Shown here: in pieces, positions 9,578 through 23,218 of the stretch | Numbering within the stretch: the stretch's first letter is position 1 | Layout: every line of letters starts with the position of its first letter | Source of the DNA: Candidatus Methanomethylicaceae archaeon | GTDB taxonomy: Archaea; Thermoproteota; Methanomethylicia; Methanomethylicales; Methanomethylicaceae | Assembly (NCBI GenBank): GCA_015660995.1 | Contig: JACTUC010000001.1 | Coordinates: forward strand, 62,001-126,000 | Length of the DNA stretch: 64,000 bases | Direction of reading: 5' to 3' | The notes under the pieces: generated by a model | Databases searched by the model: none | Told to the model about the DNA's origin: nothing | The model's input: the letters and a program-made list of their open reading frames with translations, nothing else | Made by a program: the position numbers and the translations under genes

Positions 9578-10093
9578 ATGGCAAAGATCCTTATTGTTAT
9601 TGCCGAGAAGGGGTTTCGCGATGAGGAATTCACTGAGCCTTACAAGATTTTAAAAAATGCAGGTCATGCAGTGACGGTAGCGAGTACTTCTGTTGGAGAG
9701 GCCCAAGGTAAGCTAGGGCTGCGGGTCAAGCCTAATGTTTCAATAGACCGCGTAGATCCTTCTCAGTACGACGCAATAGTTGTTGTTGGCGGGCCTGGCA
9801 CACCTGCATATATCTGGCCAAATACTGCTCTCCAGAAAGCCCTTCGAGCGGTTTATGATAAGGGTGGAATAGTTGCTGCCATATGCTTGGCGCCAGTCGT
9901 ACTAGCAAGAGCAGGATTAATCAAAAACAAAAAGTGCACGGTTTTTCCTACAACCGAATCGCTTACAGAAATTAAAGTTGCTGGTGGCCTTCTGCAGGAT
10001 CAACCTGTTGTTGTTGACGGAAGAATTGTAACTGGAAATGGCCCTGATGCTGCAACAACATTCGGAGAGGCGTTGCTTAAACTCTTAAAATAA
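9578..10093 (+). CDS. DJ-1/PfpI family protein
   Basis: KILIVIAEKGFRDEEFTEPYKILKNAGHAVTVAS and AAICLAPVVLARAGLIKNKKCTVFPT nucleophile elbow. Confidence 0.85.
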   Translation: MAKILIVIAEKGFRDEEFTEPYKILKNAGHAVTVASTSVGEAQGKLGLRVKPNVSIDRVDPSQYDAIVVVGGPGTPAYIWPNTALQKALRAVYDKGGIVAAICLAPVVLARAGLIKNKKCTVFPTTESLTEIKVAGGLLQDQPVVVDGRIVTGNGPDAATTFGEALLKLLK

Positions 10094-10265
10094 ACTCTTT
10101 CACCCTGGTATGAAAAAATAAAAATCACGTGAGGTCAAGCAAAGTATCTATCATGCGAATACTGAAGAGGTTTACATTGCTCCAAGTTCGCGGATTTACG
10201 AGCAGAGTTGGACGAGAGCATCCTTAAATTACGAATAAGGGTTATGAAATATCTGAGTTGGTTCA

Positions 10266-16984: not shown

Positions 16985-18712
16985 TCAGGCAATAGCTGGC
17001 CGCCTTCGCACAAGCACTATGAGGGCGACGGCACCTGCTAAGACTATAACAGATGTCATCCCTACAGCTGTAAGTGTTGAGAAAAGCAGTGACGCCGGGA
17101 GTGCCTGCACGCTTGTCACACCATTGGAGCCGATATTCACCAAATACAGAGGGCTGCTGGCTGCCCCTACATTACCAACGCCAATGCTGGGGTCATGGGT
17201 TAGTGTCCCATTGAAATATGGGTAGGTGATGAACAGTCTTAAGTGGTTGCCATTCTCAATGTAAGCCGCTCCAACTGGCACGATTGTTACGACTCCATTG
17301 CTGTTCACCATCGCGAAGGGGACAAACCTGAAGAACCCTTCCAGCGTGGAGTTGGTATTCAGGGTGATCTTGTTCAATGAAGCCATCTTCAGGATCTTTC
17401 CTGCGAGATTATTGTTTGTAAGTATTGGCTTGTATATGAGCTGGCTGGCATCAGCGCTATTCCCGGTCAAGGGTATTGAAGCACCGCCGCCGTTTGCGGT
17501 GAAGCTCGCTGTATTAGCCGCTAGGGTTGCGTTGATATCAGTCATATTATCGAAGAAAGCCTCAAATCTTGTACCAGTAGCATTGAAGGCAGATGCATCA
17601 ACCCAGAGCGCTAGACCTGGCGAGATCGTGATGCTAGATGAATTCAGTAGTTGGATGGTCTTGGGCGCGAAGTTCCAATTCCAATTGCTGATGATCAAAT
17701 CCATCTTCATCTCGCCACCAGCAACGCTGTAGGACAAGGTTTGCCCGCTTTCACTGTATGACTCCGTAACAGGTTGGGCGTAGATCCTTATGACCAGCTT
17801 CACATTGTTATCAGAAAGGTCGAACTTTGGAGGGGCATTGATCATGGTGAAGGTGAAGGTTATGCCAATGCTGCTGCCACTGTTATCGTTTATTGGTGTT
17901 ATGCCGCTGAGACTCCATGCGCAGCTGTTGAAAGGTAGAAGCGCGGGGTGGAAGCTCGCTGCTAAATCCATGAGGTTTTCCCTTTGAGCGATCCTGTCGT
18001 CTATCAATTGCGTAGCTGCGTTCAATCCTGCCTTGAGCACGTTGCCTACCTGATTATTGGCTTGGGCAATTGCATCATCTGGATTATTGCCGGTATTGAC
18101 AGCGTTTATGGCATCATCGACTTTAGTGATTGCAAGATCAAGCGCGTTTGAAACATTGGTGTCGTTGGCGTACTGCTTGATATCCTGCAGTATAGTCAGC
18201 GCTGCCTGCAGCTTGATCATAACTGTTGTTCTGTTGCCTAGACCCAAGTTGACCAAGATGCCTGCGGTAGTTATGGCATCATCTGCCTTGACCAAGGCCG
18301 CTCCCGCCTTCTGGTAGGCCTGTGCCTTCATCGAGTCTATCATATTCATTTCTTGAACTAGCGTTACGAAGAGGGTGCTCTCTGCAGCGTTCTTCAACAG
18401 GAAGCTTGAATTGTTGTCGATCTGCGCATACTCGATCAGCCCCTTGAATTGGGCAACATATACCTTGTCCGATTGGTTATTGGCCCACCAGACGAACTGT
18501 GGCTCACCACCGTTATTGGGAAAGATCACAGTGTAGGCATCCGTTACTATCTTAGTATAGTTGCCAATTGCAGTGACCTGGGGCACATTTGTGTCCGACG
18601 CATGCATCTGGGCAGCAACCGGCGTTGCCGCTAACGCACTAATACTAAGAAGCAGGATAGAAAGCAGGCCGATCGTTAAGACTTTTATGCCTCTCATCAG
18701 TTTCACCATCAA
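16985..18712 (-). CDS. Large secreted, C-terminally membrane-anchored surface protein, unknown
   Basis: Signal peptide (LTIGLLSILLLSISALAATPVAA), Asn-rich beta regions, internal helical block, C-terminal TM helix followed by RRR. Confidence 0.6.
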   Translation of the reverse strand: MMVKLMRGIKVLTIGLLSILLLSISALAATPVAAQMHASDTNVPQVTAIGNYTKIVTDAYTVIFPNNGGEPQFVWWANNQSDKVYVAQFKGLIEYAQIDNNSSFLLKNAAESTLFVTLVQEMNMIDSMKAQAYQKAGAALVKADDAITTAGILVNLGLGNRTTVMIKLQAALTILQDIKQYANDTNVSNALDLAITKVDDAINAVNTGNNPDDAIAQANNQVGNVLKAGLNAATQLIDDRIAQRENLMDLAASFHPALLPFNSCAWSLSGITPINDNSGSSIGITFTFTMINAPPKFDLSDNNVKLVIRIYAQPVTESYSESGQTLSYSVAGGEMKMDLIISNWNWNFAPKTIQLLNSSSITISPGLALWVDASAFNATGTRFEAFFDNMTDINATLAANTASFTANGGGASIPLTGNSADASQLIYKPILTNNNLAGKILKMASLNKITLNTNSTLEGFFRFVPFAMVNSNGVVTIVPVGAAYIENGNHLRLFITYPYFNGTLTHDPSIGVGNVGAASSPLYLVNIGSNGVTSVQALPASLLFSTLTAVGMTSVIVLAGAVALIVLVRRRPAIA

Positions 18713-18842
18713 ATTCTTGGAACTAAGGGCTTTTAACCGATTCTTTTATTGGGGATTTTAGGAGAAATTCGAAAATTAGAAAATGAATAATACTTAATAC
18801 AATTCGAAAATCCCTATGTATTTCAACCATCCTATCATTTGA

Positions 18843-19052
18843 TTGAGGAATATGCGAGGGAAACTTGAATACCTGAATCAGTACATTGGAAAGAATACCC
18901 CAATCGCCCATAGGAGTGCCATAAGAGCCTTCCTTAAGGTATCGCTGAAGGTACAAATTTGTCGCTTCGAACACCTAGAACCTTACGCCGAGAAATACCT
19001 AAACGAAAAGCGAAGTCATATCAGCTTTAAGGACTTATCAAATAAATATTGA
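18843..19052 (+). pseudogene. Possible tyrosine-recombinase N-terminal (core-binding) fragment
   Basis: YLNQYIGKNTPIAHRSAIRAFLKVSL...LEPYAEKYLNEKR resembles an integrase N-terminal SAM-like domain; no catalytic domain follows. Confidence 0.35.
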
Positions 19053-19059
19053 TTCAAAT
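19031..19059 (+). repeat. Left copy of imperfect 29-bp direct repeat flanking the island
   Basis: GGACTTATCAAATAAATATTGATTCAAAT; 26/29 identical to 22621-22649. Confidence 0.7.
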
Positions 19060-19326
19060 AGTCATCTATACGAAAGATCTTGGGCATATGCACGCCCTTG
19101 GACCTGCATTGAACTGTATGTACAGTCTCATGGTGTTTTAGGCGTCTCTTGATTGTTCGCGATCACACTTCCGACTAACGGGGGCGAGGATATAACCGAG
19201 TTAACCATCACATATGATCGCCTATCATCAGAAACCGGTGCTGTTGGGTCGCCTTTCTGTTCTACATTTATTAACCATGAGCGTCTAACCATAAACAAAA
19301 ACCCAAGGAAAAAGGAAATTCATGAT

Positions 19327-19938
19327 ATGACAACCAATAATGCAAGGAAAAAACTAGTAAAGCTACTTCCCATTTTGATCTTAACTTTGCTAATAGGTAC
19401 AGTCAGCGCTGCTGTCTTTACCATGTACTATGGCAATGTGACTGCAACCGTCAAAACACCTGATGTGCAGTTAATTGCAGGCTCAGATTCAGCTACCAGT
19501 CCCATCGCCTATCCCAATGCCACCGTGACCGTTGCAAGCACATACGACTACGCAACGATAGCATTTAGTTTGTTCCCATCAGCTACTAATACACCTCAGC
19601 CCGCGACATACTACACCAATCTTACGCTGATAAAAAATACTGGTTCTGTGACCCACACAATTACTAACATAACCTTATCAGGCTTAACAAATATGGCTAA
19701 CCTCGGAAACGTAACAGTCTATTTATACAACGGTACCCAAACCGATAGCCCGACCACTGCAACTGCACAAGGTTATGCAACTTTAACTAGTGGTTCTACG
19801 GGGACAGTAACTCTTACGGGCATTCCAGTGACCCTTCCGGCGGGGGATATATGCTACATTGAAATTGTAGGTTATGCAGCTTCAGGTATAGCAGCTGGCC
19901 AGACTGTAGTATTTACGGTCTCCATTACATGGCATTAA
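19327..19938 (+). CDS. Small secreted beta-protein with SipW/TasA-type signal region (possible filament subunit)
   Basis: KLVKLLPILILTLLIGTVSAAVFTMYYGNVTATV signal region, then about 170 aa of Thr/Asn-rich beta sequence with no further TM helix. Confidence 0.55.
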   Translation: MTTNNARKKLVKLLPILILTLLIGTVSAAVFTMYYGNVTATVKTPDVQLIAGSDSATSPIAYPNATVTVASTYDYATIAFSLFPSATNTPQPATYYTNLTLIKNTGSVTHTITNITLSGLTNMANLGNVTVYLYNGTQTDSPTTATAQGYATLTSGSTGTVTLTGIPVTLPAGDICYIEIVGYAASGIAAGQTVVFTVSITWH

Positions 19939-19954
19939 ACACCACCAAGGGAAG

Positions 19955-22003
19955 TTGCAGCTAGAAAAAGGAGTGGGCACGGTGACGGATGCTCCGGTGA
20001 AGCGTTCAAGTAGCTCAAAGCATAGGCGCTTCCAGTTAGTCATGCCCCTTCTAATCATTTTCTCTATTCTTGCTATTACTCCGGCTGAAGCGTCAAATCA
20101 AACCATCGACTTCGCCCAATGCACATCCACGGTTAAGGCGCCGTCGGTAACTCTTGGAGTAGGAAACCAAAGCACCACATCTGTCTCTGCAACCAATGAC
20201 TACGCAACCATTACAACTACAGCCGGTTTAGCTTTTTATGAGAACGCCTCGGGTCCTTCAGGACCGACGCCGAGCGCGAATACCGCCCTAACCCCCTCCG
20301 GCAGCAGTGGCTCCTATGCGGTGAACCAAGGGACCACCGCTTACCTGTGGTCCCCCCAGTTCGGAAGCGCGACCACGATTGGCGCGGGGAGCTGGGTTCT
20401 GGGCTTATGGACGGCCTCGCCGAGCTACTTGGTGGGCTACGTTCCCATCACGCTCACGAACTCCCAGAGCACGGCGGTATCTGGGGGCACCCAAGTAATG
20501 ATCAATATGAGCTGGAATAATTACACCTCCTATTTGGACAATCCCGTGGACAATTACGTCTTCTTCAATAGCTCAGGCACGCCCCTCTACAGCTGGCTGG
20601 AGAACGGGACGTCTAGCAGCTCAACCAATTCCGTGGTCTGGGTCAAGCTCGATTCCAATGGGATTCCGGCCAACGGCGCAGTGACAATCTACGTTGGGTT
20701 CTACCCTCACGGAACGAACGTGCTCGGATGGAACAACGCTACTGGTGCATCGGCGCTGCTTGCAGGAAACTATGGGGTGAACTACGGCCTCTACGACAAC
20801 GGGAACCTCACGTTCACCTTCTATGACAACTTCAATGGCAGAAGCTTGAGTTCAAACTGGAATATAAGCACCTATGGTTCACCTACCATTACGGTCAACA
20901 ACGGTTTGAATGTAACGACGGCTAAGACATCTGCGACTGGTTATAATGAAAGCTGCATCTACGCCTCCTTCACCCCTCCTTCAGCGGGCATGATCATGGA
21001 GGTGAACTGGAGGCCGGTTGCTGGGACTTTTTCAAAATTCGGCATGGGGAACAATCTTACTGGCTCCAGCATGTTCAATAATATAAATGGATACCTTGTA
21101 AGGCCAAACTGGAATGCTAATACATCATTACTTCAGTGTTTCAAACCCCCAGTGAATTATACTGCAATCGCAACTCTGACAGAATCTAACAATTATGTGC
21201 TTGGCAATAACTATACGATGGGGCTTACATGGTCCACGGTTGCCTCCAACAATATGATAATCAATGATACCACAACTGGAAAGAGTGCATCGGTGACCGA
21301 TAAAACTTTTAACCCATTGAACGGAACGCAGATTGCTTTAGATGCGGCAGGCCAAGAAACATTTTGGTGGGTGCGGGTCAGGCAGGCTCTCCCCAACAAC
21401 GTGATGCCGACGGTCTCAAACGGCAGCATGACCATCCCGACCAATGCGTTGCTGGTGTCGGTTTACGTTACGAATTCATCAGGAAGCATCACCAGCACCA
21501 TAGCGAGCAATCAATCGCTCGTGATTGGGAGCACTGAAAGTCCATACCCGATGACCTTCGCCGGGGGTCAGGTCCCCGTCCCGGCGAACGGATACCTCAT
21601 GGTTTCGCTCTCTGCAGGCATTTACGCTTCCTATGTCGTCTACTGGGGAACTGGACAGGCGACGAATTTTAGCACGCCAAGTATTTTCAATTACGTTTTG
21701 TCCTTAAATAATTCGGGAACTGTTCCGTATAATGTCAACATTTCGGTTTTTAGCAGTTCTTTAATTACTAGGCTGACGAATTTGACTTTGTATCTTAACT
21801 CTACCATAAACGGGATTGCCATAACTAATGGTGTATTTACGCAATCTAGCTCGACTTTCACTTTGCCAGCTAATTCAACTTTGCAGGTGGCAGTGAATGC
21901 TATGGCTAATGCCTTTGGTAGCTCTAACATAATGCTGCTTTTGAAGATTACCCAGAACGTAAGACCATTTGCATATAATGCGATTAACCTGACGGTGAAC
22001 TAA
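19955..22003 (+). CDS. Large surface protein with DUF2341-like domain
   Basis: Signal sequence; VPITLTNSQSTAVSGGTQVMINMSWNNY...YVFFNSSGTPLYSWLENGTSSSSTNSVVWVKLDSNGIPANGAVTIYVGFYP matches the DUF2341 pattern; LamG-like FYDNFNGRSLSSNWNIS follows. Confidence 0.65.
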   Translation: MQLEKGVGTVTDAPVKRSSSSKHRRFQLVMPLLIIFSILAITPAEASNQTIDFAQCTSTVKAPSVTLGVGNQSTTSVSATNDYATITTTAGLAFYENASGPSGPTPSANTALTPSGSSGSYAVNQGTTAYLWSPQFGSATTIGAGSWVLGLWTASPSYLVGYVPITLTNSQSTAVSGGTQVMINMSWNNYTSYLDNPVDNYVFFNSSGTPLYSWLENGTSSSSTNSVVWVKLDSNGIPANGAVTIYVGFYPHGTNVLGWNNATGASALLAGNYGVNYGLYDNGNLTFTFYDNFNGRSLSSNWNISTYGSPTITVNNGLNVTTAKTSATGYNESCIYASFTPPSAGMIMEVNWRPVAGTFSKFGMGNNLTGSSMFNNINGYLVRPNWNANTSLLQCFKPPVNYTAIATLTESNNYVLGNNYTMGLTWSTVASNNMIINDTTTGKSASVTDKTFNPLNGTQIALDAAGQETFWWVRVRQALPNNVMPTVSNGSMTIPTNALLVSVYVTNSSGSITSTIASNQSLVIGSTESPYPMTFAGGQVPVPANGYLMVSLSAGIYASYVVYWGTGQATNFSTPSIFNYVLSLNNSGTVPYNVNISVFSSSLITRLTNLTLYLNSTINGIAITNGVFTQSSSTFTLPANSTLQVAVNAMANAFGSSNIMLLLKITQNVRPFAYNAINLTVN

Positions 22004-22062
22004 ATGTGGCGTGTTAGATCCAAGAAAAGGATCAACAAAGAAACTATGGGGGCGTTAATTTA

Positions 22063-22584
22063 ATGGCAGCTGTATTTGCGCCCCAGTTTTTCTTGCTTAT
22101 CGGTATTGAACTATTTCTGGCTGGAAGTATTGTGACAACGCTTCTTGAAGATTATTATCCTGCGTCTTTACCTTACATACTTGATGTCGGGGCCTTTGTC
22201 GGTCTAGTACAGCTTTGGTTTGGTCCAAATTATTTAGGTGGTCTTAATGAGGTTTTGCAGTTCTATTATTGTGTTGGGTTTGCATTGATTGCACTTTTGA
22301 GTTTAGTTGGGGCTAATGTTTATTTATTCTTGGCTAAGAGAAGGGTTTTTCTAAGCGGGGCTTTTGGGTTAGTCGTAACAGTTCCTGCTTGTCTAGTGCT
22401 ATTGTTCTTCGGCAGCGCTTATGTGAATGATATCCCAGTTGCTTTACCTCCTCTGCCGGTGTTATCTTGGACGGAGGTTTATGTGCTATTCTTTGCTTCA
22501 GCCGTGATCCTATTTTCAGCGATGGCGTTTTTGGTTTATCAAAGAAAACGCAAAAATATGCATGTGAAAAAACCAACTAAATGA
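22063..22584 (+). CDS. Small polytopic membrane protein, unknown
   Basis: About 4-5 hydrophobic helices, Lys/Arg-rich tail; follows the surface protein gene directly. Confidence 0.5.
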   Translation: MAAVFAPQFFLLIGIELFLAGSIVTTLLEDYYPASLPYILDVGAFVGLVQLWFGPNYLGGLNEVLQFYYCVGFALIALLSLVGANVYLFLAKRRVFLSGAFGLVVTVPACLVLLFFGSAYVNDIPVALPPLPVLSWTEVYVLFFASAVILFSAMAFLVYQRKRKNMHVKKPTK

Positions 22585-22620
22585 CCTTCATTTCCATCTA
22601 AATTATCACAAGGAATTTTC

Positions 22621-22649
22621 GGGCTGATCAAATAAACATTGATTCAAAT
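22621..22649 (+). repeat. Right copy of imperfect 29-bp direct repeat
   Basis: GGGCTGATCAAATAAACATTGATTCAAAT. Confidence 0.7.
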
Positions 22650-22852
22650 GTTTTCAGGTCATCATCAGTTACCATCAAAACTTGGGCTTTTTGAGAGTTT
22701 TAGTCCATTTTTTATGGTAATCTTCGAAAGAAAACTTAAAGTACACTTTAAATTCGAAAATTTAAATTTCTAGCTGATGGCAGAAATTCCAACCGCCTGA
22801 TGGTTCCACAAATATTATTTACTCCGCAGTTAAAACTAAGTTAGGTGTCTCT

Positions 22853-23218
22853 TTGGTCGGAAAACGGCGAGGAAGGAAGTCGCTGAAGAAGCTGCTGGAT
22901 GATGCTGTAGAGGCTGCTGAGGAGCGCTCCACAACAGTGGGTGCCCCCCTCCTCGAGGAACTGGACGAGCTCATCTGGCATGAGGATGAGATAGTTGTCT
23001 ACTCGCCTACAATGGTCGACCTGCCAGGAAAGGTCTACAGGGTAATGGGGGCCGGGCTGAGGCGCAGGGGCTTTACTGTCACCAAGCAGAGGGAGGTCGA
23101 GCTAAGGAATGACCGACTGATGTATGTCAACCGGTACATCGTCGAGGGCGACGGCGTGGGAGAGGAGGCGACCGTTTACGCAAGGCTCCACGACATGTCG
23201 ATAGTGGAGGCCATCTGA
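22853..23218 (+). CDS. Hypothetical protein (121 aa)
   Basis: Open frame with charged N-terminus; no recognised motif. Confidence 0.45.
   Translation: MVGKRRGRKSLKKLLDDAVEAAEERSTTVGAPLLEELDELIWHEDEIVVYSPTMVDLPGKVYRVMGAGLRRRGFTVTKQREVELRNDRLMYVNRYIVEGDGVGEEATVYARLHDMSIVEAI

Follow-up and report, generated by a model that had tools for sequence, protein, structure and literature searches.

A candidate donor-strand filament operon on a repeat-bounded accessory island in the genome of a Methanomethylicaceae archaeon

Two archaeal surface filaments are the closest described relatives of the genes considered here, namely the bundling pili of Pyrobaculum calidifontis (subunit AbpA; PDB entry 7UEG) and the threads of Sulfolobus (subunit Saci_0406; 7PNB). 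The gene for the thread subunit is co-transcribed with that for Saci_0405, a protein of similar fold that has no predicted Sec signal and is the putative cap (PMC9715654). According to the same source, the manner in which archaeal donor-strand filaments assemble is unknown (PMC9715654). In Bacillus, a secreted subunit, an accessory subunit, and a signal peptidase are encoded together in the tapA–sipW–tasA operon.

We examined a stretch of 64,000 nucleotides of archaeal DNA (hereafter the window) in which a 3.6-kb island lies between two direct repeats. As the original prediction from the sequence had it, the island holds three co-oriented genes, all on the + strand, which we call P1, P2, and P3. 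We consider it likely that they form an operon for a donor-strand-complemented filament of the bundling-pilus and thread kind, with P2 as its putative adhesin and P3 as a putative assembly or anchoring factor, and that the operon reached its present position by site-specific insertion.

The island is accessory. In another member of the same family (G003), which is syntenic here, the genes that flank the island in the window (a surface protein gene at 16985-18712 and a gene at 22853-23218) are adjacent, with about 275 bp and no island between them, and of the family members listed, at least 20 gave no hit in a search with the P1 profile. Two further relatives hold other genes in the same gap, named by eye from their translations: in G002 (L038, 8878-9970) what seems to be a piece of a type I restriction-modification gene, and in G013 (L042, 4777-10817) a large gene whose product resembles a restriction-modification enzyme. 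This gap, from the surface protein gene to the 121-aa gene on its other side (window 18713-22850), has the look of an insertion hot spot at which accessory genes differ from one family member to the next. The AT-richness ascribed to the island is real but mild, its GC content being 46.5% against 51.1% for the window (the 6th percentile of same-size windows); the P2 gene alone has 49.4%.

The bounding repeats had been reported as 29 bp long (19031-19059 and 22621-22649, 26 of 29 positions identical). They are genuine, and their fuller extent is 34 nt (left, 19026-19059; right, 22616-22649; both on the + strand), with 29 of 34 positions identical and a spacing of 3590 bp; the best pair of 24-mers in the surrounding 8 kb matches at 22 positions, as compared with a maximum of 20 in 100 dinucleotide shuffles. 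Each repeat contains a 22-bp core (19035-19056 and 22625-22646), TGATCAAATAAACATTGATTCA, which is an imperfect palindrome, ATCAA-N7-TTGAT, with 5-bp arms and a 7-bp spacer, and one of the mismatches between the two repeats falls inside the spacer. Both repeats are indeed followed by GTCATC and CTTGGGC, but the longer duplicated element proposed on that account was rejected: the right flanks are no more alike than chance would give (score 16, p = 0.18), and each has a better partner elsewhere in the genome.

The core occurs five times in the genome, in the two window repeats and at C27:33854, C21:369, and C21:3331, and each copy lies in intergenic, or almost intergenic, DNA. With up to three mismatches allowed it is absent from all 40 relatives searched, and it is on no viral contig searched. 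Two closely similar small genes of the Lrp ligand-binding type (L011 on C27 and L010 on C21) each adjoin a core copy, and one of them has a tRNA gene close by. The left arm of the site at C21:3331 resembles that of the left window copy, and its right arm resembles that of the right window copy. The right repeat is 88% identical to C21:3324-3398 over 75 bp, mostly in the core and right arm, while the left-arm match covers only about 26 bp, is gapped, and is equalled in score by 76 of 20,000 real segments matched for AT content, among which the sites themselves were counted. Meanwhile, the right arm of the left window copy resembles those of the C21:369 and C27 sites, which have both arms in common; for the left arm of the right window copy a partner was sought in the genome and none was found.

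A left copy that looks hybrid and a right copy that shares one arm with C21:3331 are the pattern that a reciprocal site-specific insertion leaves. On these alignments we are somewhat inclined to such an event: the island would have been inserted by site-specific recombination between two half-sites, together equivalent to a site like C21:3331, and these, attL-like on the left and attR-like on the right, would now be the direct repeats. An alternative, which we find the less probable although it retains real weight, is that the repeats, whether regulatory sites scattered through the genome or short mobile repeats, played no part in the arrival of the island. The intergenic placement of the copies, the palindromic, operator-like core, and the proximity of two copies to the Lrp-type genes are all in keeping with it. 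Against it, homology extends for 26-75 bp outside the core and the partner switches at the core, as reciprocal exchange predicts, and a fragment of an integrase gene ends within one of the copies.

This fragment, which the earlier reading overlooked, encodes the N-terminal 66 aa of a tyrosine recombinase/integrase (18852-19052 including the stop, + strand), and its 3' end lies inside the left repeat. Residues 3-57 are 40% identical to the start of an intact 386-aa protein with a Phage_integrase domain (PF00589) in G024, and the fragment is 36% identical to another Phage_integrase protein, in G027. Some archaeal integrase genes hold their own attachment site and are split upon insertion (PMC8371274), and the fragment resembles the remnant of a gene split in this way. 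The likeness to the suicidal (SSV-type) mode of integration is that an N-terminal integrase fragment runs up to the core of a direct repeat whose spacer is 7 bp long. In contrast to that mode, the window offers no tRNA target, and PF00589, not the suicidal-type PF16795, is the domain of the intact relative. Of the features expected for an SSV-type element, the int(N)-like fragment and the att-like hybrid repeats are present, but no int(C) was found in the genome, where the search for it yielded only a full-length 438-aa recombinase on C25, which is not a split half. Given the mismatch in the spacer and the lack of any recombinase gene between the repeats, the island is probably fixed now. The notion of a mobile or recombining module survives as to its accessory character and is unlikely as to present mobility. 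Relatives carry the genes without such repeats, an outcome that the original prediction had set down as telling against it; the repeats are accordingly a feature of the present insertion rather than of the filament system. No repeat pair was found bracketing the corresponding cluster of G337.

P1 (19327-19938, + strand) is a secreted, pilin-like protein of 203 aa with a signal peptide at about residues 1-28 and six N-glycosylation sequons. Its family alignment displays a signal peptide with a conserved VSA motif followed by an aromatic-rich strand. An AlphaFold model of a family member from a Bathyarchaeota genome (L122; pLDDT 84.6), built on an alignment that included the window protein (23% identity), was compared by Foldseek with 350,542 PDB chains; the best match was the P. 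calidifontis bundling pilus (E = 1.6e-6, TM 0.54) and the second best the Sulfolobus thread (E = 3.3e-5). The model of the window protein itself is weak (pLDDT 63.7), and its top match is 9BAB, another archaeal extracellular tube subunit. A sequence-profile chain leads to the same filaments. Searching the PDB directly by sequence, whether with P1, P2, or the P1 family alignment (A1), returned nothing significant, and the link came through an intermediate family, an alignment of mostly signal-peptidase-linked P1 members (A6): the comparison of A1 with A6 gave 99.6%, and the A6 profile matched 7UEG (E = 9.6e-11) and 7PNB (E = 1.8e-6), both over nearly the whole length. From the fold match of the modelled family member and this independent profile chain, P1 is a real homologue of the Pyrobaculum and Sulfolobus subunits. 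The family profile has a match in 63 of the 398 genomes of the phylum.

P1 had been put forward as a TasA-like filament protein. Its place in the bundling-pilus and thread group is upheld by both fold and profiles, but the TasA and camelysin families are absent from the Pfam matches of 19 members and from the NCBIfam matches of P1, and TasA is not among the fold matches listed. Type IV pilin features were likewise not seen: the signal of P1 is of the Sec type, ending VSA-A, with no prepilin-type N-terminus, and no gene for a secretion ATPase or TadC lies between the repeats. P1 would be exported by Sec and cleaved after VSA-28, whereupon its free N-terminal strand could complete the fold of the next subunit and so build up a fibre.

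P2 (19955-22003, + strand; 682 aa) contains a P1-like pilin domain that is split by a large insert. The alternative start at GTG 19982, which has the better ribosome site, is likely and would give a protein of about 673 aa. The P1 profile matches only the two ends of P2, in order (residues 24-87 and 574-653), with 18.4 and 20.1 bits, or 22.9 bits when the ends are joined, as compared with a maximum of 8.7 bits in 500 shuffles; the insert, about 450-490 aa long, scores -1.4 bits. The protein has a DUF2341 domain above the Pfam cut-off, located in the insert, and a match to PHROG_7548 (E = 8e-11), and its DUF2341 region resembles proteins of archaeal filamentous viruses. DUF2341 has been proposed as a mark of archaeal type IV pilus tip adhesins (PMC4858521). 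Among the homologues of P2, short ones (188-208 aa) lack an insert and long ones have inserts that differ. P2 thus behaves like the minor subunit that the original prediction assigned to the module, its ends placing it in the same domain family as P1, and it may serve, in few copies, as an adhesive subunit, probably located at the filament tip.

P1 and P2 could instead be monomeric or S-layer-associated surface glycoproteins, with P3 as their membrane anchor. The abundance of sequons (28 in P2, beside the six in P1) would suit such proteins, as would the wide occurrence of jelly-roll folds, evident in the many lower-scoring hits to unrelated PDB and viral proteins. We nonetheless regard this explanation as unlikely, because the two top fold matches and the sole sequence-profile matches are filament subunits, and because sister loci in which P1 and P2 are paired with a signal peptidase parallel the tapA–sipW–tasA operon.

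P3 (22063-22584, + strand) is a polytopic membrane protein of 173 aa with four or five transmembrane segments and belongs to a conserved, unnamed family that has no Pfam entry and for which no characterised relative was found. It has matches in 29 of 398 genomes, about 20 of them strong. The P3 genes of nearly all relatives adjoin P1. At 22 loci P3 and P1 are in one cluster, about half of which also contain P2 (the P3 of L101 is counted from the family search, though absent from the mechanical ORF list), and the P3–P1(–P2) operon is conserved in other archaea, mainly Bathyarchaeota. The small membrane protein is accordingly borne out as a partner in the module. The order is P1–P2–P3 in the window and P1–P1'–P2–P3 in G337, and the P3 proteins of these two group together in a tree (support 99/98). 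Two open reading frames that read like homing-endonuclease fragments (9742-10128 and 17532-18218) flank the G337 cluster (L098).

The roughly 40 loci that were read fall into two layouts, P3–P1(–P2), in which no signal peptidase is encoded, and P1(–P2) accompanied by a SipW-like peptidase. A signal peptidase gene is present at none of the 22 loci of the former type and at 13 of 17 P1 loci without P3 (Fisher p = 3e-7, with relatedness uncorrected and the comparison loci picked for lacking P3). P3 adjoins P1 in nearly all relatives, no locus that was read combines it with a signal peptidase, and we therefore propose that it may serve as a membrane assembly or anchoring factor of the P3-linked subtype. 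P3 proteins of 161-174 aa pair with a long P2 and those of 226-239 aa with a short P2 or none (L099-L114 and L161-L164), which suggests two subtypes. As to the other layout, clusters of P1, P2, and a SipW-like peptidase in G027 (L047) and G024 (L155) adjoin a serine resolvase gene (PF00239), a hint that peptidase-type clusters may be mobile.

More tentatively, the P3-linked operons might constitute a distinct and widespread subtype of archaeal donor-strand filament, in which P3 is the assembly factor, or a substitute for the dedicated peptidase, and P2 is a replaceable tip adhesin with an insert swapped among lineages; this subtype would also spread by site-specific insertion. With its gene linked to that of the pilin in several families, P3 is a concrete and testable candidate for an assembly factor. 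The filament class would also be extended to the Bathyarchaeota and to a lineage in which the filament is an acquired trait.

A viral origin of the whole module was considered and rejected: that the island is what remains of an archaeal virus or plasmid once integrated there, with P2 as a host-recognition protein, would accord with the truncated integrase beside the repeat and with the 33-36% identity of the DUF2341 region to proteins of rod-shaped viruses, of a lipothrixvirus, and of Los Azufres archaeal virus 1, yet it is quite improbable, in that this similarity is confined to about 130-175 residues, none of the viral contigs searched encodes P2 or P3 or carries the core, matches in the viral fold library are generic only, and P3 and P1 lie in a chromosomal neighbourhood conserved in many Bathyarchaeota.

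Finally, the suggestion that the system might be undescribed holds only in part. The subunit class is known, but the literature searched yielded no account of the P3-linked subtype, the split-domain P2, or the occurrence on an inserted island (the main paper on bundling pili lay outside that search and may describe part of this). With the AbpA pili the locus shares the P1-family fold and an end-to-end profile link through peptidase-linked homologues, and here P1 has P3, rather than a SipW-like signal peptidase, as its linked partner. The Sulfolobus threads are next in both fold and profile, and P2 stands to P1 as the same-fold partner Saci_0405 stands to Saci_0406, except that P2 has a signal-like N-terminus and a large, adhesin-like inserted region whereas Saci_0405 has no predicted Sec signal. 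From the Bacillus TasA/TapA/SipW system the locus departs in having no camelysin or TasA match in Pfam and no SipW, either in the window or at the 22 P3-type loci; it resembles that system in that a small, secreted beta-sandwich subunit and an accessory subunit are encoded in one operon, and sister archaeal loci are linked to SipW-like peptidases.
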